Below, piece by piece: positions 15,623-28,078 of a DNA stretch of 64,000 nucleotides; positions within the stretch are counted from its first letter, which is position 1; the number at the start of each line of letters is the position of its first letter. The notes under the pieces were generated by a model. The model was not told where the DNA came from, searched no databases, and saw only the letters and a program-made list of their open reading frames with translations. The stretch covers positions 992,001 through 1,056,000 of the forward strand of contig JAPLFF010000007.1 of the NCBI GenBank assembly GCA_026390775.1, read 5' to 3'. The DNA is from Ignavibacteriales bacterium. Its GTDB lineage: Bacteria; Bacteroidota; Ignavibacteria; Ignavibacteriales; Melioribacteraceae. A program made the translations under genes and the position numbers.

Positions 15623-16024
15623 ATGAAGAAGTTAATTGCATTATTAGTTGTAGTTGCATTTACAGCAACAGCATTTGCACAAGCTCAGCCACAAAAGAAA
15701 GCCGAAGCTGCTAAACCAGCGGTTAAAGTTGAAGCTGCTAAGAAAGTAGCAGAGAAAAAAGTTGAAACAGCTAAAGTGGTAGCTGACAAAAAAGTTGAAG
15801 CTGCTAAACCAGTAGCTGCAAAGAAAGTAAAGGCAGCTAAAGTAACAGCTGACAAAAAAGTTGAAGCTGCTAAACCAGTAGCCGCAAAGAAAGTAAAAGC
15901 TGCTAAAGTAACAGCTGATAAGAAAGTAGAAGCTGCTAAACCGGTAGCTGCAAAGAAAGTAAAAGCAGCTAAAGTAGTAGCTGATAAGAAAGTTGAAGCT
16001 GCCAAGAAAGAAGTTAAAAAGTAA
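15623..16024 (+). CDS. secreted Lys/Ala-rich protein with 11-residue repeats
   Basis: A 133-residue protein with a signal peptide (MKKLIALLVVVAFTATAFAQ) followed entirely by a repeat built of two 11-residue units, KKVEAAKPVAA and KKVKAAKVTAD, giving a 22-residue (66-base) tandem period at least three times. The composition is Lys, Ala, Val with almost no other residues. This predicts a long amphipathic helix, recalling LEA group 3 hendecads and histone-H1-like tails. The ribosome site is AAGGAG. A strong terminator follows, so it is monocistronic. Role unknown. Confidence 0.8.
   Translation: MKKLIALLVVVAFTATAFAQAQPQKKAEAAKPAVKVEAAKKVAEKKVETAKVVADKKVEAAKPVAAKKVKAAKVTADKKVEAAKPVAAKKVKAAKVTADKKVEAAKPVAAKKVKAAKVVADKKVEAAKKEVKK
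15701..16020 (+). repeat. 66-bp tandem coding repeat
   Basis: The coding sequence repeats with a period of 66 bases (two 33-base half-units), visible in GCTAAAGTAACAGCTGA.AA and GCTAAACC.GTAGC.GC. Copies differ at third positions, so the array is old or selected rather than freshly expanded. Confidence 0.75.
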
Positions 16025-19727: not shown

Positions 19728-20207
19728 TCAATTAAGTGTATTAATCGGGTTAGTATCAGAATTTAATAGTACTTCAGAAACTTTCACTTTTATAACACCA
19801 CGGCCAATCATACCGAGATTAAGTGCTGTCCCTTTAGATAAATCTAAATCACGTCCTTCAATGAATGGACCCCTATCATTTATTCTTACAATAACTGATT
19901 TACCATTCTTCAGATTTGTTACTTGAAGGATAGTTCCAAATGGTAATGACTTATGTGCTGCTGTAAGCGCCATTTGATTATACTGTTCGCCGTTTGCCGT
20001 TAACTTTCCGTGAAAGCGCGGACCGTACCAAGATGCGGTCATTACACCCAAATTGTTAAAGTTAACAGATGTCATTATGGGTTCTGCATCTTTGCTTACA
20101 GTTATTTTAGCCACACCATTTATCTCGCCTGCAGAAGTATCGCTAAGATTGAACCCGACACTTACAGCAAACAGACTGATGATGAAACCTATTTTTAACG
20201 TACGCAA
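19728..20207 (-). CDS. rlpA: RlpA-like septal-ring/peptidoglycan protein
   Basis: A 159-residue secreted protein with a hydrophobic signal (residues about 1-24) and a double-psi beta-barrel domain of the RlpA family (about 60-150): [61 protein letters not shown]. RlpA enzymes cleave naked glycan strands in some species and are structural in others. The SPOR domain of longer RlpA proteins is absent, so this is the short form. Confidence 0.88.
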
Positions 20208-21022: not shown

Positions 21023-22486
21023 ATGAGAAACATTTGCGCCTTTATTCCTTATTTAAATAATTCAATTACCAGTGGTATTGTGCAAGTGCTTTCTGCTTCT
21101 CAGCACATAGAAAAGATATTTATCCTTTCTGAGCTCAATTTAGGATTTAATAGTGATAAGGTTCTGGAACTATCTATTGATCATTTTAAGAGTACTAACT
21201 CAATAAGAGTTATGGCGAAAAGCACTGAATCTGAATATGTGCTTCTTGTTACTCAACCAGTAGAAATTAATTTAGGCATTTATTCACTTGAAAGATTTTT
21301 AAGAATCGCACAAGAGATTCAAGCTGGGATACTCTACTCAAATTATTATGAAATTAAAAATAATAAGACTCAGCAACATCCAACCATAGATTATCAACCG
21401 GGCAGCATACGCGATGATTTCAATTTTGGCCCCTTACTTTTTATTAACACAAAAGCATTGAAGAATACTGTATCCTCTATGAAAGAAGATTACTCGTTTT
21501 CAGGGCTTTATGATTTACGACTTAATATTTCACGGTTTAATTCTATACTTCGAATTCCGGAATATTTATATACATCCTATGAACAGGATCTAAGAAATTC
21601 AGGTGAAAAGCAGTTTGACTACGTGAATCCGGATAACCGTTCTATACAAATTGAAATGGAGAAAGTCGCAACTGATCACTTAAAAAAAATAAATGCATTT
21701 TTGAGGCCAACTTTTAAGACTGTTGATTTGATGAATAGTTCTTTCGACACAGAAGCTTCCATAATTATCCCGGTAAAGAATAGAATAAAAACAATTGGAG
21801 AGGCTGTAACTTCTGCACTTAAACAAATAACTAATTTCCGCTTTAATATAATTGTTGTTGACAATCATTCAACTGACGGAACAACAGAGCTTCTAAAAAC
21901 TCTTTCTGCAAAACACGAACAACTGATTCATATTATTCCATCAAGAGAAGATTTATTAATTGGCGGATGCTGGAATGAAGCCATCAACAATAAAGCTTGC
22001 GGCAAATTTGCTGTTCAACTTGATAGCGACGATGTTTACTACGATGGGAATACACTTCATAAAATAATTGATACATTCTATAGAGAAAAATGTGCAATGG
22101 TCATCGGTTCTTATATTCTAACAGATTTTTCTCTAAATCAAATTCCGCCCGGATTAATTGATCACAAAGAATGGAGCAATGATAACGGTTCTAACAACGC
22201 ACTTCGAGTTAACGGCTTAGGCGCACCTCGGGCTTTTTATACACCACTACTTAGAGAAATAATAATTCCAAATGTCAGCTATGGTGAAGATTATTATTTG
22301 GGAATTACGATTTCGAGGGAATATAAGATTGGAAGAATCTACGAGCCAATTTATTATTGCAGACGTTGGGAAGAAAACACCGACTCTCTTCTTGATATTA
22401 ATAAACTGAATCTGAACAATCTTTATAAGGATCGCCTTCGTACATTCGAAATATTAACGAGGCAAAAAATGAATAAATCTAAATGA
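21023..22486 (+). CDS. two-module glycosyltransferase (GT2 C-terminal domain)
   Basis: A 487-residue protein. The C-terminal half (from about 240) is a GT-A family 2 glycosyltransferase: [29 protein letters not shown], and the metal/nucleotide site [12 protein letters not shown]. The N-terminal half also looks GT-A-like ([19 protein letters not shown]) but lacks a clear DxD. Its stop overlaps the start of the next gene (ATGA), so the two are coupled. Likely acts on a nucleotide-sugar donor for a surface polysaccharide or storage compound. Confidence 0.85.
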
Positions 22487-23478
22487 TCATCAACGACAAA
22501 CCCGAAAGAAATGCCAGCGCTGATTGGTGGGCAGAGCAATCTAAAAAACTGCTCGAAGACCAAAGACAATCTTGGCCATTACTAAATGAGAATTATCAAA
22601 ATTTTTCTTCTACTAAAATTCGAACTTTTGAATTTGATGGTTTTGAAATAAAAGTTCAGTTTAACCCCGCCAGAATAAAATCATCTTCTGCGGATGTAAG
22701 TGAAGATGCTATCAAATCGCGCAAATGTTTTTTGTGTCTTGATAATCTTCCGAAAGAACAAACAGCTTTAGGTTACAATAAGAATTTTGTTGTTCTTGCT
22801 AATCCATACCCGATCTTTCCGGAACATTTTACGATTTCAAAAAAAAATCATATGCCGCAAACTTTGATCGGAAATTTTGCGGAGATGCTTGTTCTTTCCC
22901 GTGATCTCGACAAGTATTATTCGGTTTTTTATAATGGACCAAAATGCGGTTCCTCCGCGCCGGATCATATGCATTTTCAGGCAGTAACAAAAAATGTGAT
23001 GCCGGTAGAAATTGAATTCGATAAAATGATAAATTTATTTTCTAAAGAAGTTTTGCGAAACAGAAAAATAGAGGTTCGTTTTTTTGAAAAACATTTGCGT
23101 TACTTTATTTCCTTCGAATCCAGAGACAAAGGTGAATTGCTTTATGTTTTCAAAACTTTAATCTATGCACTTAGAAAGATATCTCCTCCGCATGAAGAGC
23201 CTCTAATAAACATGCTGGCGAATTACCAGGAAAATATTTGGCGTTTAGTTTTCTTCCCCCGAAGCAAACACAGACCAAAACAGTTTTTTGCATATGGCGA
23301 TAATCAGTTGCTAATTAGTCCTGCCACCGTTGATATGAGCGGTTTAATTATTACCCCGCGTGAAGAAGATTTCTTAAAAATTACCAGAGACGATGTGATT
23401 GATATTTACAAACAAGTAACTATAACAAAAGAATATTTTGAATTTCTAAGAAAGAAAATAGGTGAGATATTTATTTAG
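22483..23478 (+). CDS. DUF4922 protein, GalT/Ap4A-phosphorylase-like
   Basis: A 331-residue DUF4922-type protein. Seen directly: a CFLC pair (Cys82, Cys85) and a histidine-triad variant HMHFQ (His162, His164, Gln166). The CxxC-then-HxHxQ layout is the one in galactose-1-phosphate uridylyltransferase and Ap4A/GDP-hexose phosphorylases, where the middle His carries the nucleotidyl group. It overlaps the glycosyltransferase by four bases. I infer a nucleotidyl-transfer or phosphorolysis step in sugar-nucleotide metabolism coupled to the glycosyltransferase. Confidence 0.72.
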
Positions 23479-23514: not shown

Positions 23515-24657
23515 TTACAATACCTTAACTGCTATTACGCTTATATCATCATCCATCTCTCCGCCGGTATAATCAAAAATTTCTTTTTGCATCTGAGCTA
23601 GTGAGTCTTCGTTCGGATTTAATTCTTCTAAAAACTTCATCAAGTGATCTTCCGAATAAAGTTCACCGGCTGTGTTTCTCGCTTCAGTAATTCCATCAGT
23701 AACTAAAAATAGTTCGTCCCCCTTATTTAGTTTCAATTCAACATCCTCATATTCTCCCGATTTACTAAATCCAAGAAGAACACCTTTAGAAATTATTCTC
23801 TCAACGGTTTTTGATTTATATATCAGCGGTAGATCTCCTGCTCCGGAGTAGCGTGCAATTTTATTTTTTTTGTCAAGAATAATTACTGAAAGCGTGATAA
23901 ACACTTCGGAAATTCTTTCATCCTTAAAAACAGATTCGTTTACTTTGTGCAGTATGTGGCTTGGTTGATAATCTTTGGATGATTCAAGCACAAACCGTGC
24001 GGCACTGCGCACATAGCCGGCATAAGCAACCGCAAAATACCAGGCGCCCCATCGTTTACCCATTACATCTCCCAAAATTATTGCTATATGATCATCGTCC
24101 ATTTTAAAGTAATCAATAAAATCCCCACCGGGAACATTTTTGAAGGGCAAGTGCCAATGCTTGATTTGAAATCCTTCGAACTGCGGAAATTCTTCCGGAA
24201 CAACTTTAGCTCCCATTGAGTCCGCAGCTTTTTGAACTTCATCAACAACTTTTACCCGTTCTTTTTCAAGACTTTTCAAAATTGCGGATACTTTTGCAAT
24301 TACAACTTTGGGACTGGATGTTTTAATAATATAGTCTTCTATTTCAAGATCAAATCCTTGAAGAATATCTTCCTCTTCTCCTTTTGCTGTAAGAAAGACA
24401 AATGGAATTTGTTTGAGTTCGGGATTTGCCAATAAGCGTTTACGAAATTCGTATCCGTCAACCTCAGGCATCATTACGTCGCTGATTATAAGATCCGGCT
24501 TTATTTTTTCTGCCAGCTCAAAACCTTCTCTTCCGTTACCAGCTACCTCACAACGAAACCCCGCCTTTGTTAAATTGAAAGTAAAAAGCTTAGCAATGTT
24601 AAATTCGTCTTCAACTAATAAGATTGTGTTTACGGATTTATTATTTTCTTGTGTCAC
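23515..24657 (-). CDS. response regulator fused to PP2C (RsbU/SpoIIE) phosphatase
   Basis: A 380-residue protein: receiver domain (1-130, phospho-Asp60 in LIISDVMMPE), short coiled linker (about 125-150), and a PP2C/SpoIIE phosphatase (about 170-380). Metal-binding Asp motifs are visible: VPGGDFIDYFKMD, IAIILGDVMGKRWGA, FLVTDGITEARN and MDDDISVIAV. In the known partner-switching scheme such a phosphatase dephosphorylates a STAS protein; a STAS gene is adjacent. It reads the same way as the following STAS, NtrC and kinase genes. Confidence 0.92.
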   Translation of the reverse strand: MTQENNKSVNTILLVEDEFNIAKLFTFNLTKAGFRCEVAGNGREGFELAEKIKPDLIISDVMMPEVDGYEFRKRLLANPELKQIPFVFLTAKGEEEDILQGFDLEIEDYIIKTSSPKVVIAKVSAILKSLEKERVKVVDEVQKAADSMGAKVVPEEFPQFEGFQIKHWHLPFKNVPGGDFIDYFKMDDDHIAIILGDVMGKRWGAWYFAVAYAGYVRSAARFVLESSKDYQPSHILHKVNESVFKDERISEVFITLSVIILDKKNKIARYSGAGDLPLIYKSKTVERIISKGVLLGFSKSGEYEDVELKLNKGDELFLVTDGITEARNTAGELYSEDHLMKFLEELNPNEDSLAQMQKEIFDYTGGEMDDDISVIAVKVL

Positions 24658-24735
24658 TGGCTTTCCAAAAATATTATTTGCAATTATTAAAGATTCTTCT
24701 CCGGCTAAAGCAAGATCAGAATCATCGCTACATTA

Positions 24736-25077
24736 TCATTTATGAAAACTTTTTATTGCGTCTTGTAATTCACTATACGATTCAAATACTCTGAACAATC
24801 TTGTCAATTCAAACATAGAGCGAACATTAGGTTTGAACCCGACTAATTTTAGATCTCCCCCAAGTTTAGCAACTTTTTTTAATGTGTTGACAATTATCCC
24901 GAGAAATGTTGAATCAAGATATTCTACTGATGTAAGATCAATTATTACCTTTCTATAACCGCTGTCAATCTTATCGTTAACTTGTCTTTTCAATTCCTCG
25001 GCTTCAAGAAGAGTGGCTCTATCAAAATTTACAATCTCAACAATAATATCATCAATTGTTTCTTCAATTATGCTCAT
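24736..25077 (-). CDS. STAS-domain anti-sigma-factor antagonist-like protein
   Basis: A 113-residue single STAS domain with the helix-start motif VEYLDSTFLGIIVNTLKKV, where RsbV/SpoIIAA proteins have DSSGLG and the phosphorylated Ser. It sits between the NtrC regulator gene and the receiver-PP2C phosphatase gene. I infer that it is the phosphatase's substrate in a partner-switch; no RsbW-type kinase is visible within the window. Confidence 0.88.
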   Translation of the reverse strand: MSIIEETIDDIIVEIVNFDRATLLEAEELKRQVNDKIDSGYRKVIIDLTSVEYLDSTFLGIIVNTLKKVAKLGGDLKLVGFKPNVRSMFELTRLFRVFESYSELQDAIKSFHK

Positions 25078-25094
25078 GGTCTACCTTTAATTTT

Positions 25095-26477
25095 TCAATC
25101 CTTTGGTGATTCGATTTTATATTTATCCATTAGACGGTAAAGTGTTGCTCTGCCAATTTTAAGTTTACGTGCGGCTTCAACAATGTTACCTTCCGTTACT
25201 TTTAATGCATGCCTAATGGCTTCTTCCTTTAATTTTTCGAAAGGAACTACGGGTGAATCCTCGCCGAAGAGAACTCCGTTAGTGTTTGAACTCGGTGTTC
25301 CTAAAGCTCCGGAAATATTTGCCGGCAGGACATCAGCTTCAATATAATCTCCATCACTTAAAATCATACATCGCTCTATAGTGTTCTCAAGTTCTCGCAC
25401 ATTTCCCGGCCAATCATAATCGTACATAATTTTTAGAGCTGCCTTGCTTACATTTTTTATTTCTTTACCGATCTTCTTATTAAATATTTTCATGAAGTGA
25501 TCAATTAAAATTACTATGTCGCCTTTTCTTTCTCTTAAAGGGAGAATATGTATTGGGAATGAGCTAAGTCGGTAATAGAGATCTTCTCTAAACTGTTTAT
25601 TATCCACTGCTAATTTAAGATCACGATTAGTTGCGGAAATAATTCTTACATCTGTTTTAATAACTTCGTTTCCACCAACGCGTTCAAATTCTTTTTGTTG
25701 AATTACTCTTAGAATTTTTGCTTGAAGAGACATTTCCATTTCGCCTATTTCGTCAAGGAAAATTGATCCTCCTTTTGCAAGTTCAAACTTTCCAATTTTT
25801 CTAACATGAGCTCCTGTAAATGCGCCTTTTTCATGACCAAATAATTCGCTTTCCAAGAGTTCGCGCGGAATGGAAGCGCAATTTACAACAACAAAGGGTG
25901 CGGTTTTTCTCTTTCCATTAAAATGTATTGCGCGTGCTACCAACTCTTTGCCTGTTCCGCTTTCTCCGGTAATTAATACTGTGATTTCGTTATCAAGTAC
26001 TTTTGATACCATCTTAAAAGCTTCCTGCATTTTTTTATCTGCAGAGATGATGTTATCAAAACTATATTCTTTCTCAATATTTTCTTTTAGCTTTTCAAGT
26101 TCACGTTCCAGATCATAATTTTTAATTGCATTTCTAATTGCCGGTCCAAGACGGTTCTTATCTATTGGTTTAGGAAAGTAATCGAACGCTCCAAGACGAA
26201 TAGATTCAAGTGCAACTTCTACGCTTCCCTGAGCCGATAACATTATTATTGGCAGGTGCGGACTCTTTTGCTTCATCCTGTTAAGAACTTCATTGCCGTT
26301 AATATCAGGAAGCATTATATCAAGAAGAACCAAATCGGGATTGTCGGAAAAAGAATTTAGCGCATCTGTTCCGGTTGTAAAAGTTTTGATTCTGTAATTC
26401 CATTGATTTTTAACCCAATGAGTAAGCATTTTTTGAATTGAGTCTTCGTCATCAATAATAAAGATTAATTTTTCCAA
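25095..26477 (-). CDS. sigma-54-dependent NtrC-type response regulator
   Basis: A 460-residue regulator: receiver (1-120, phospho-Asp53 in LVLLDIMLPD), AAA+ domain (about 145-380) with canonical GESGTGKE and GAFTGA, and a Fis-type DNA-binding helix pair at the C-terminus (NIVEAARKLKIGRATLYRL). It sits 20 bases after the PAS kinase gene and before the STAS gene, all on the minus strand. It should activate sigma-54 promoters in response to the kinase. Confidence 0.93.
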   Translation of the reverse strand: MEKLIFIIDDEDSIQKMLTHWVKNQWNYRIKTFTTGTDALNSFSDNPDLVLLDIMLPDINGNEVLNRMKQKSPHLPIIMLSAQGSVEVALESIRLGAFDYFPKPIDKNRLGPAIRNAIKNYDLERELEKLKENIEKEYSFDNIISADKKMQEAFKMVSKVLDNEITVLITGESGTGKELVARAIHFNGKRKTAPFVVVNCASIPRELLESELFGHEKGAFTGAHVRKIGKFELAKGGSIFLDEIGEMEMSLQAKILRVIQQKEFERVGGNEVIKTDVRIISATNRDLKLAVDNKQFREDLYYRLSSFPIHILPLRERKGDIVILIDHFMKIFNKKIGKEIKNVSKAALKIMYDYDWPGNVRELENTIERCMILSDGDYIEADVLPANISGALGTPSSNTNGVLFGEDSPVVPFEKLKEEAIRHALKVTEGNIVEAARKLKIGRATLYRLMDKYKIESPKD

Positions 26478-26497
26478 TTTTTCCCTCGGCTGTATTT

Positions 26498-28078
26498 CTA
26501 CTTTGGTAAACGAATAATAAATGTTGTTCCTTTATCCACCTGACTTCTAACTTTAATAAAACCTTTGTGCAAATCTACAATTTGTTTTACGCTTACAAGA
26601 CCAAACCCAGCGCCGCCCAGCGGTGTTCCAAATTGTTGAATTTTACTGAATTTTTGAAAAAGATTCGGCAAATCTTTTTCCGGAATTCCAACACCTGTAT
26701 CGCTAATAACTATTTCAATTTCCTTCCCGTAGTCCTGCAGTATTACTGTAATTCTTCCGCCAGCATTTGTGAATTTAACTGCATTAGATATTAAATTTCC
26801 AAAAACTTTTTTTAGACGGTCTTTATCAACGTTAATTTGTAATTCATGTTTAGGATATTCTTTTGAAAGTGTAATCTTTTTTTCTTTAATCTGATCTGAA
26901 AAATTAATTAAGGATTCATCCAGGACATTAACAATATTAATTAAGGATTTTTGTAATTCTTCCTCGCCGCTTTCCAGTTTAGAAAAATCAAGTACATCAT
27001 TAATTAATTTGCCTAAGCGTTTGCCTTCCATTAAAATAATATTACTGAATTCACGAATAGTTTCTTTGGGAAGATCCGGATCCGATAAAATTGTTTCTGC
27101 AAAACCAACTATTGATGCAAGCGGTGTTCGCAGTTCGTGCGATACATTTGAAATGAATTCGCTTTTTAATTTATTCACTTCTTCAAGAACAGTTATCTTA
27201 TGCTGGGCTCTTTCCCGTTCAATAGAAATTATACGATTAGCTTCAACTAATTTTGCATTGAGATCTTTTATTTTTTGTTCATCAAGTTTGCGGTTTGTAA
27301 TATTGCGTCCGATGCTTAACATACCGGAAACTTCTCCGTCGCTTAACATCGGCTTTGCGCTAAATTCAAATGTAATCCCCTTATCAAATCTGTCTAGAAA
27401 CATTGCTTCGAAAGTTGTAATTCCGTTTGAGTTTAATATTTCAGTAAATGCGGCGGCTATTTTAGGTTCATCTTCTTTATCAATGAATTCAAGAAAATGT
27501 CTGCCTATCATTTCATCGGGGGTATAACCAAGTGTAGTCGCGCCGTTTTTATTAACCATGCTGAAATAACCAAAACCGTTAAGAATAAAGATCAAATCAT
27601 CGGCAGTGTCAATCAGCGCTCTAAATCTTTCTTCAGAACCTTCTAGTTTCAGTAGTATTTGTTTCTCTTCGGTAATATCTTGAATTGCGCCAACTACGCG
27701 TACGGTTTTATTGTTTTTAATAATCGGAAATCCGGAGTGTCTGACCCAGTGCTCTTTGCCGAATCTATCTTTCATCCGGTATTCAACGGTTGACTCAATC
27801 CCATTATTAAGATTATTAATAAAACTTTTAAAATTGCTGAAATGTGCAGGATATATTGACCGCAATATTTGTGTTTTGTTCTTATAAATTTCTTCGGGCG
27901 AGAATCCGTATAAAGTTCTTACTGCATCTGTAATAAAATTATATTCTGTTCCTTCAGCATTAATTGAATAAAGAACTATATTAATAGAACTAACCGTCTC
28001 GCTAAAAAGCTGTCCGGTTTTATCTTTTAAAAGTTTTTCTTTTTCGGATGATTTTGTTTTACCGCTTCCGCGTTTCAT
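26498..28078 (-). CDS. cytoplasmic PAS-PAS sensor histidine kinase
   Basis: A 526-residue kinase without membrane helices: PAS/PAC 1 (about 25-140), PAS 2 (about 148-265), a coiled-coil segment (about 265-305), phosphoacceptor domain with His314 in ISNVSHELRTPLAS, and an ATPase domain (about 415-526; SNAVKFTNAGG, DTGVGIPEKD, GAGFGLVSVKQIV). The PAS domains suggest sensing of an intracellular signal such as redox or a small ligand. It is the first gene of the kinase-NtrC-STAS-PP2C group. Confidence 0.92.
   Translation of the reverse strand: MKRGSGKTKSSEKEKLLKDKTGQLFSETVSSINIVLYSINAEGTEYNFITDAVRTLYGFSPEEIYKNKTQILRSIYPAHFSNFKSFINNLNNGIESTVEYRMKDRFGKEHWVRHSGFPIIKNNKTVRVVGAIQDITEEKQILLKLEGSEERFRALIDTADDLIFILNGFGYFSMVNKNGATTLGYTPDEMIGRHFLEFIDKEDEPKIAAAFTEILNSNGITTFEAMFLDRFDKGITFEFSAKPMLSDGEVSGMLSIGRNITNRKLDEQKIKDLNAKLVEANRIISIERERAQHKITVLEEVNKLKSEFISNVSHELRTPLASIVGFAETILSDPDLPKETIREFSNIILMEGKRLGKLINDVLDFSKLESGEEELQKSLINIVNVLDESLINFSDQIKEKKITLSKEYPKHELQINVDKDRLKKVFGNLISNAVKFTNAGGRITVILQDYGKEIEIVISDTGVGIPEKDLPNLFQKFSKIQQFGTPLGGAGFGLVSVKQIVDLHKGFIKVRSQVDKGTTFIIRLPK

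Follow-up and report, generated by a model that had tools for sequence, protein, structure and literature searches.

The GT2 glycosyltransferase gene (termed GT) and the DUF4922 gene, which lie side by side in the genome of an Ignavibacteriales bacterium (assembly GCA_026390775.1), are linked to, occasionally fused with, and almost always inherited together with a gene for a SpoIID-like protein, and this trio is inherited with a subfamily of AmpG-type permeases. The two genes are located in a stretch of 64,000 nucleotides (positions 992,001 to 1,056,000 of contig JAPLFF010000007.1; C7:992001-1056000 in our numbering), which is referred to as the window. The open reading frame (ORF) of GT (21023-22486, + strand) encodes 487 amino acid residues and that of DUF4922 (22483-23478, + strand) encodes 331 residues, and the two share the four bases ATGA at 22483-22486, as read in the preliminary description of this locus. 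It is likely that the trio belongs to AmpG-linked recycling of peptidoglycan. It is also somewhat probable that GT2, DUF4922 and SpoIID form a cytoplasmic trio, which would stand in for, or add to, the NagZ, AnmK and MurQ steps that act on the AmpG-imported disaccharide of N-acetylglucosamine (GlcNAc) and N-acetylmuramic acid (MurNAc) or its 1,6-anhydro form (anhydroMurNAc).

Linkage and co-inheritance of the GT, DUF4922, SpoIID and AmpG genes

The best 80 of 548 confirmed DUF4922 loci constitute an 80-locus set, and the 30 best-scoring loci and the window's own locus constitute a 31-locus set. These sets share some genomes (for example L037/L012) and are not independent. A GT homologue (>150 bits) is located upstream of DUF4922, on the same strand and within 1.4 kilobases (kb), at 63 of the 80 loci. 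At six of the 17 loci without GT, the DUF4922 match starts no more than 560 bases from the end of a contig, so that 63 of the 74 informative loci are paired. GT is adjacent at 25 loci of the 31-locus set, and the six other genomes contain GT elsewhere, except for one (G140) that contains none. The four-base overlap is also found at 12 of the 51 loci of the 80-locus set at which GT is called directly upstream. GT and DUF4922 are fused in L101, which is from a metagenome-assembled genome (MAG) of Thermodesulfobacteriota, and in L143 and L144. In L142, GT, DUF4922 and SpoIID form a single ORF of 1266 residues, which is directly followed by AmpG. Chance pairing of GT and DUF4922 is ruled out by these adjacency counts and fusions, and the pair, on whose conservation in relatives the preliminary description had made its proposal depend, is conserved. 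In a GT tree of 70 rows, the fused rows require three label changes, at least two of which are forced by starred branches, and L101 is located on a long branch. This result indicates that the fusion was gained or split on more than one occasion.

L032 and L048 are from the same MAG. L032 carries the DUF4922 that is closest to the window's in the 80-locus set (92% identical), with no GT upstream, and L048 carries a diverged GT-DUF4922 pair. A second copy of the pair at G049:C140:4511-8750 appears to be broken, in that the GT match is interrupted by a stop and DUF4922 is split in two. A gene of a GNAT acetyltransferase cluster (L086, L089, L097 and L100) or of an AmiA-like cluster (PF07313; L041, L049 and L059) is located between GT and DUF4922 at seven loci, these families having been checked in L086 and L049.

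When the neighbouring genes are clustered over 91 loci, genes for SpoIID, AmpG, NamZ, a BadF/MurK-like kinase, MurQ and GH3 are recurrent. The numbers of calls per 80 loci are 43 for SpoIID, 40 for AmpG, 22 for a large protein that carries a Golvesin_C domain (as checked in L098), 17 for NamZ, 15 for the BadF/MurK-like kinase, 12 for MurQ and 9 for GH3; at two loci, the DUF4922 gene escaped the ORF caller. The families were checked on example neighbours for SpoIID (PF08486), NamZ (PF07075/PF20732), MFS_1, BadF and AmiA-like (PF07313), and the clusters that we take to be MurQ and GH3 are named from their sequences and general knowledge. SpoIID and AmpG come after DUF4922 at most Bacteroidales loci, with exceptions that include L110, in which a kinase-type gene (cluster c5) comes after DUF4922, and L142, which has a regulator gene (cluster c9) upstream. 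The identified recurrent neighbours are mostly cell-wall genes or regulators, with many neighbour clusters unassigned and flippases and polymerases not searched for.

The distribution of the genes was analysed in a single, evenly drawn sample of 395 genomes of the phylum, with E value thresholds of 1e-30 for DUF4922, 1e-60 for GT and 1e-40 for SpoIID. DUF4922 is present in 57 genomes, and GT (56 genomes) and the SpoIID subfamily (55 genomes) are found exclusively within these 57. Thus, 54 genomes carry all three genes, three carry two of them (G140 without GT; G413 and G534, both AnmK-positive, without SpoIID), and 338 carry none at the thresholds used. The profiles (A2, A3, A5 and A6) are derived largely from linked copies and therefore define subfamilies. 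The best SpoIID match in each positive genome is at least 558 bits, and the other matches listed, which are from four genomes, are below 178 bits except for a second copy in G161. The presence or absence of the trio covaries inside families f5 and f19, and co-inheritance persists where the genes are scattered, as in the window's genome. The AmpG subfamily is present in all 45 DUF4922-positive genomes tested (of 57) and in four of 35 negative controls (Fisher test, 3.7e-18, uncorrected for ancestry). These 35 controls and the 16 controls for MurQ described below were hand-picked from AnmK-positive genomes. G413 is counted among the genomes with the module (module genomes) for AmpG, MurQ, GH3 and NamZ, and G140 is counted among them for AmpG. 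The AmpG-type permeases of Ignavibacteria (L163:2562-4349 and others) consist of approximately 600 residues with an insertion between the two matched halves, and that of Bacteroides ihuae consists of approximately 430 residues.

Folds and motifs of the three proteins

The features of the gene pair in the window are as follows.

21023-22486, + strand: GT2 glycosyltransferase, with a GT-A-like N-terminal half (residues ~1-230) and a predicted catalytic GT2 half (residues 243-487) containing QLDSDD and YGEDY
22022-22033, + strand: DSDD (residues 334-337), putative metal/nucleotide motif of GT, invariant in 58 sequences
22483-22486, + strand: ATGA, at which the GT stop overlaps the DUF4922 start, read in the sequence
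22483-23478, + strand: DUF4922 protein of the HIT superfamily with a predicted Ap4A-phosphorylase-like fold (Ap4A, diadenosine tetraphosphate); PF16269, 196.7 bits versus a curated cut-off of 23.6, E 2.4e-58; model with a mean predicted local distance difference test score (pLDDT) of 94.1; yeast Apa2, Z 21.4
22726-22737, + strand: CFLC (residues 82-85; C82 and C85), putative zinc ligands, cysteines invariant in 76 sequences
22966-22980, + strand: HMHFQ (residues 162-166; H162, H164 and Q166), putative nucleotidyl-transfer motif, invariant in 76 sequences and aligned with DHKHLQ of Apa2

The SpoIID partner matches PF08486 and TIGR02669 (165.1 bits for the copy in the window's genome versus a TIGR02669 cut-off of 83.3) and solved SpoIID proteins (E 3e-24), and the SSEM, CADDHC and GHGVG motifs are found in all 40 partners. 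An N-terminal hydrophobic segment is found in none of these 40 partners by a hydropathy test with our own threshold, which is not a signal-peptide predictor. This test is positive for 16 of 18 NamZ proteins and negative for all 14 BadF-type kinases and all 10 MurQ proteins. Judged by this test, the SpoIID partner does not appear to carry a signal peptide for export to the cell wall. It resembles SpoIID lytic transglycosylases in its profile matches and conserved motifs, but differs from them in the absence of a signal-peptide-like segment and, in L142, in its fusion with GT and DUF4922. The Bacillus SpoIID acts on the cell wall outside the cytoplasm, and the glutamate of the SSEM motif presumably corresponds to E88 of B. 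subtilis SpoIID. According to the accessible text of PMC6635528, E88 is essential in B. subtilis SpoIID, D48A is the only Waddlia SpoIID point mutant reported with lowered activity, and Waddlia SpoIID also acts on the cell wall outside the cytoplasm. By analogy, a SpoIID-type enzyme can work at C1 of MurNAc with or without water, so that opening of the anhydro ring by such an enzyme would be chemically thinkable.

GT matches PF00535 (Glycos_transf_2) at residues 246-380 with 81.3 bits (cut-off, 23.3; E 1e-22), and QLDSDD and YGEDY are found in all 58 GT homologues. Its model (pLDDT 92.6) is bipartite, the N-terminal half being GT-A-like and the C-terminal half belonging to GT2. The C-terminal half matches a GT-A GT2 enzyme (6p61; Z 24.1, 186 aligned residues) and also heparosan synthase, RmlT, TarS and TarP. 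Chondroitin polymerase is the top whole-length Foldseek match, with the two halves placed differently (root-mean-square deviation (rmsd), ~22). By profile and predicted model, GT is a member of GT2 with a GT-A fold and its metal motif. GT2 enzymes usually build glycans, and the folds of chondroitin polymerase, TarS, TarP and RmlT are consistent with a reading in which GT2 synthesizes a surface glycan or the sugar of a glycoprotein, its nucleotide-sugar donor is produced or restored by DUF4922, and the cell-wall linkage is secondary. A related operon of Tannerella forsythia is also termed glycosylation-related, after an earlier study, in the accessible text of PMC5388701. This reading is unlikely, however, in view of the co-inheritance with AmpG and a signal-peptide-less SpoIID, the fusion with SpoIID in L142, and the identified recurrent neighbours, which are mostly cell-wall genes or regulators. 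The pair is inherited with this SpoIID and with AmpG, and many loci lie amid recycling genes; therefore, the donor is most likely part of the reuse of cell-wall sugars. The earlier proposal that the pair makes or recycles its donor is accordingly not retained as an isolated donor-making route, but may hold inside a recycling pathway.

C82, C85, H115, H123, H162, H164 and Q166 of DUF4922 are invariant among 76 aligned homologues, and CxxC and HxHxQ are both present in all 76, indicating that the CFLC and HMHFQ motifs pointed out in the preliminary description do not occur by chance. From what is known of GalT and other HIT enzymes, we assume that C82 and C85 bind zinc and that H164 is the nucleophile. 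In a comparison of the predicted model, which was built from the 76 sequences, the nearest solved fold by far is that of yeast Ap4A phosphorylase Apa2 (4i5t; Z 21.4, 268 aligned residues, rmsd 3.5), followed by those of a DUF4931 protein (Z 10.5), a uridylyltransferase (9.4), ADP-glucose phosphorylase (9.1) and GalT (7.9-8.6). No VTC2 structure is found among the fold matches listed. Apa2 is also the only significant relative when a sequence profile is compared with solved structures (E 1.7e-4), with the HxHxQ region aligned; a phmmer search of solved structures with the single DUF4922 sequence gives no match up to E 1, and an NCBIfam search gives none. Thus, DUF4922 resembles Apa2 in its whole-length fold and in HxHxQ with its surrounding motif, but differs from it in that the identity is 17% and DUF4922 is linked to GT2 and cell-wall genes. 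GalT and ADP-glucose phosphorylase are likewise HIT-type nucleotidyl transferases with a partial fold match, which is far weaker than that of Apa2 (204-215 aligned residues and rmsd 4.7-5.1 for GalT). By these Z values GalT is ruled out as the nearest relative. The earlier assignment of DUF4922 as a GalT-like, nucleotidyl-transferring HIT relative is therefore kept for the HIT branch, to which DUF4922 belongs by predicted fold and by the HxHxQ motif, and is given up for GalT as the model. DUF4922 gives 20.5 bits against the Ap4A_phos_N profile, below its cut-off of 23.1, and for this reason is not classed as an Ap4A phosphorylase. Judged by its model, it has the Ap4A-phosphorylase fold and probably that chemistry.

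The position of Apa2 as the best fold and the sole significant solved relative would fit a housekeeping phosphorylase, comparable to GDP-glucose phosphorylase, that removes an incorrect nucleotide sugar or Ap4A arising alongside GT2 catalysis. So strict a dependence on GT, SpoIID and AmpG would not be expected of an enzyme with a general clearing function, however, and DUF4922 is present in just 57 of the 395 phylum genomes, so that a role of this kind is improbable.

Recycling genes and surroundings of the gene pair

In E. coli and Pseudomonas, peptidoglycan is recycled by AmpG, NagZ, AnmK and either MurQ or AmgK-MurU; to our knowledge, GT2, DUF4922 and a cytosolic SpoIID are not part of this route. 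The window's genome resembles these systems in that it contains an AmpG-type permease (C7:1389082-1390836) and AmgK-like and MurU-like genes, but differs from them in that no AnmK, no MurQ above the cut-off (best match, 37 bits) and no GH3 protein (the family of NagZ) are found in it. It also keeps SpoIID (C7:925514-926833), NamZ and a NagK-like kinase. At L161:2994-5152, the AmgK-like kinase carries a fused RapZ C-terminal domain, and the MurU-like gene starts two bases later. By analogy with the role of RapZ, this domain suggests control by an amino sugar. The NagK-like kinase gene is located directly before AmpG, and the nearest solved structure of its product is a MurNAc/GlcNAc kinase. Because the disaccharide-splitting and ring-opening steps are left without a known enzyme of the families searched in this genome, the trio is the remaining candidate.

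AnmK is present in 271 of the 395 genomes, namely in 22 of the 56 with GT (in G157 by a weak match only) and in 249 of the 339 without GT. AnmK is thus depleted in GT-positive genomes (Fisher test, 1.4e-6, which ignores shared ancestry), genomes outside the complete list of 271 positives being counted as AnmK-negative. MurQ passes the cut-off in 19 of 30 module genomes, which were chosen to include 20 without AnmK, and in 15 of 16 controls, the sixteenth (G245) having a strong match under the cut-off. It is missing in 11 of the 20 AnmK-negative module genomes, including the window's, versus none of the 10 AnmK-positive ones.

One further feature of the window is given for context only.

19728-20207, - strand: RlpA-like double-psi beta-barrel protein, divergent from GT (PF03330, E 1.2e-25)

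This protein is possibly a lytic transglycosylase, and homologues (cluster c29) are encoded near DUF4922 at four further loci (L032, L033, L034 and L039). A short protein encoded at 15623-16024 (+ strand) has a signal-like start followed by alanine/lysine-rich repeated units (KKVEAAKPVAAKKVKAAKV...). A promoter and terminator scan gives results near the level of shuffled sequences (16 versus 12.8 and 3 versus 1.4, respectively). Downstream of DUF4922, at 23515-28078 (- strand), genes for a SpoIIE-type phosphatase and for what we take, from sequence and general knowledge, to be a STAS protein, a sigma-54 regulator and a histidine kinase are arranged in a run, which is also found in L032-L035, L038, L055 (without the STAS gene), L057 and L060. 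The presence of these genes next to the pair at several Ignavibacteria-type loci, the window's included, would suit a module that senses or signals wall turnover, for example through transfer of a nucleoside monophosphate (NMP) from DUF4922 to a partner or through synthesis of a signal nucleotide by DUF4922, but this is very unlikely because SpoIID and AmpG are next instead at most Bacteroidales loci (with exceptions such as L110 and L142) and the catalytic motifs are retained in all three proteins.

Proposed pathway and its significance

If the trio acts in AmpG-linked recycling, the AmpG-type permease would import GlcNAc-anhydroMurNAc and GlcNAc-MurNAc into the cytosol, where the three proteins would be located. 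The SpoIID domain would act at C1 of (anhydro)MurNAc, GT2 would move the GlcNAc residue between the glycan and uridine diphosphate (UDP), and DUF4922 would form a His-NMP intermediate and exchange the nucleotide sugar with phosphate or a sugar phosphate. GlcNAc would then exit as GlcNAc 1-phosphate or UDP-GlcNAc, and MurNAc would go to AmgK-MurU. This particular division of labour among GT2, DUF4922 and SpoIID is tentative and rather doubtful. A more specific scheme is quite unlikely. In it, the trio would re-use the bond energy that is stored in 1,6-anhydroMurNAc by lytic transglycosylases: a cytosolic SpoIID would open the anhydro ring through reverse transglycosylation, backward action of GT2 with UDP would yield a UDP-amino sugar, and DUF4922 would exchange this sugar with phosphate or a sugar phosphate. 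Wall sugars would be returned in activated form at the cost of little or no adenosine triphosphate and without NagZ, AnmK and MurQ.

The operon Tanf_08345-08385 of T. forsythia, which includes AmpG and MurTKQ, resembles several of the present loci in gene order, its lytB corresponding to SpoIID and its ybbC to NamZ, but differs from the window's genome, in which these genes are dispersed and MurQ is missing. Tanf_08345-08370 are described as xanthan lyase, glycosyltransferase, glycosyltransferase, lytB, ampG and ybbC, are co-transcribed with murTKQ and encode a functional AmpG; in the accessible text, Tanf_08350, Tanf_08355 and Tanf_08360 are given names and no function (PMC5388701, the only paper found with these locus tags). 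From its position, Tanf_08355 may be DUF4922. MurK and a second kinase flank the cluster on either side, according to the accessible text of PMC10465942. T. forsythia AmpG imports GlcNAc-anhydroMurNAc and GlcNAc-MurNAc, both of which support growth; AmgK and MurU are assigned to an anabolic route, no AnmK is predicted, and the fate of the imported fragments was named in 2020 as an important question under study (accessible text of PMC7670621). In the open-licence PubMed Central text of the matches listed for DUF4922 and for recycling with SpoIID, AmpG, AnmK and Bacteroides/Bacteroidetes, no function is given for the trio. Within this text, DUF4922 appears in two papers about GDP-L-galactose phosphorylase of plants, a Rhodothermus GH3 paper contains no such locus, and a mycobacterial recycling preprint concerns another undescribed route. 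Nothing relevant is found among the matches listed for Ap4A phosphorylase and peptidoglycan.

Several points weigh against a role of the trio in recycling. We know of no activity for GT2, DUF4922 or the SpoIID-like protein, and GT2 enzymes normally build glycosides, so that the reverse reaction is a supposition. In the window's genome, GT-DUF4922 is apart from SpoIID (~86 kb) and AmpG (~374 kb), and the AmgK, MurU, NagK and AmpG matches, which are clear by E value (8e-20, 1e-36, 7e-41 and 2e-49, respectively), are below the curated NCBIfam cut-offs. Common descent accounts for part of the co-occurrence, and DUF4922-linked copies were the source of the SpoIID and AmpG profiles. AnmK is depleted yet still present in 22 of the 56 GT-positive genomes, and MurQ is present in 19 of the 30 module genomes; therefore, the module is not a strict replacement, and this role is rejected for AnmK. 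GH3 and NamZ were searched for in 23 genomes, consisting of 18 module genomes (11 without AnmK and MurQ) and five controls. GH3, the only glucosaminidase family searched, is present in all five controls and in 17 of the module genomes, the window's being the only one without it, and its gene is located directly after DUF4922 in L085/L146, which have an identical GT, and in L104. Simple replacement of NagZ by GT and DUF4922 is rejected for these reasons. NamZ is present in 15 of the 18 module genomes, including the window's, versus five of five controls, and is therefore context rather than a marker.

If the trio acts in recycling as proposed, functions would be provided for DUF4922 and an unassigned GT2 enzyme, a SpoIID domain would be located in the cytosol, and Bacteroides and Ignavibacteria would have a recycling route that proceeds through nucleotide chemistry. 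The trio is a concrete candidate for the processing step in T. forsythia, which grows on GlcNAc-anhydroMurNAc although no AnmK is predicted for it.

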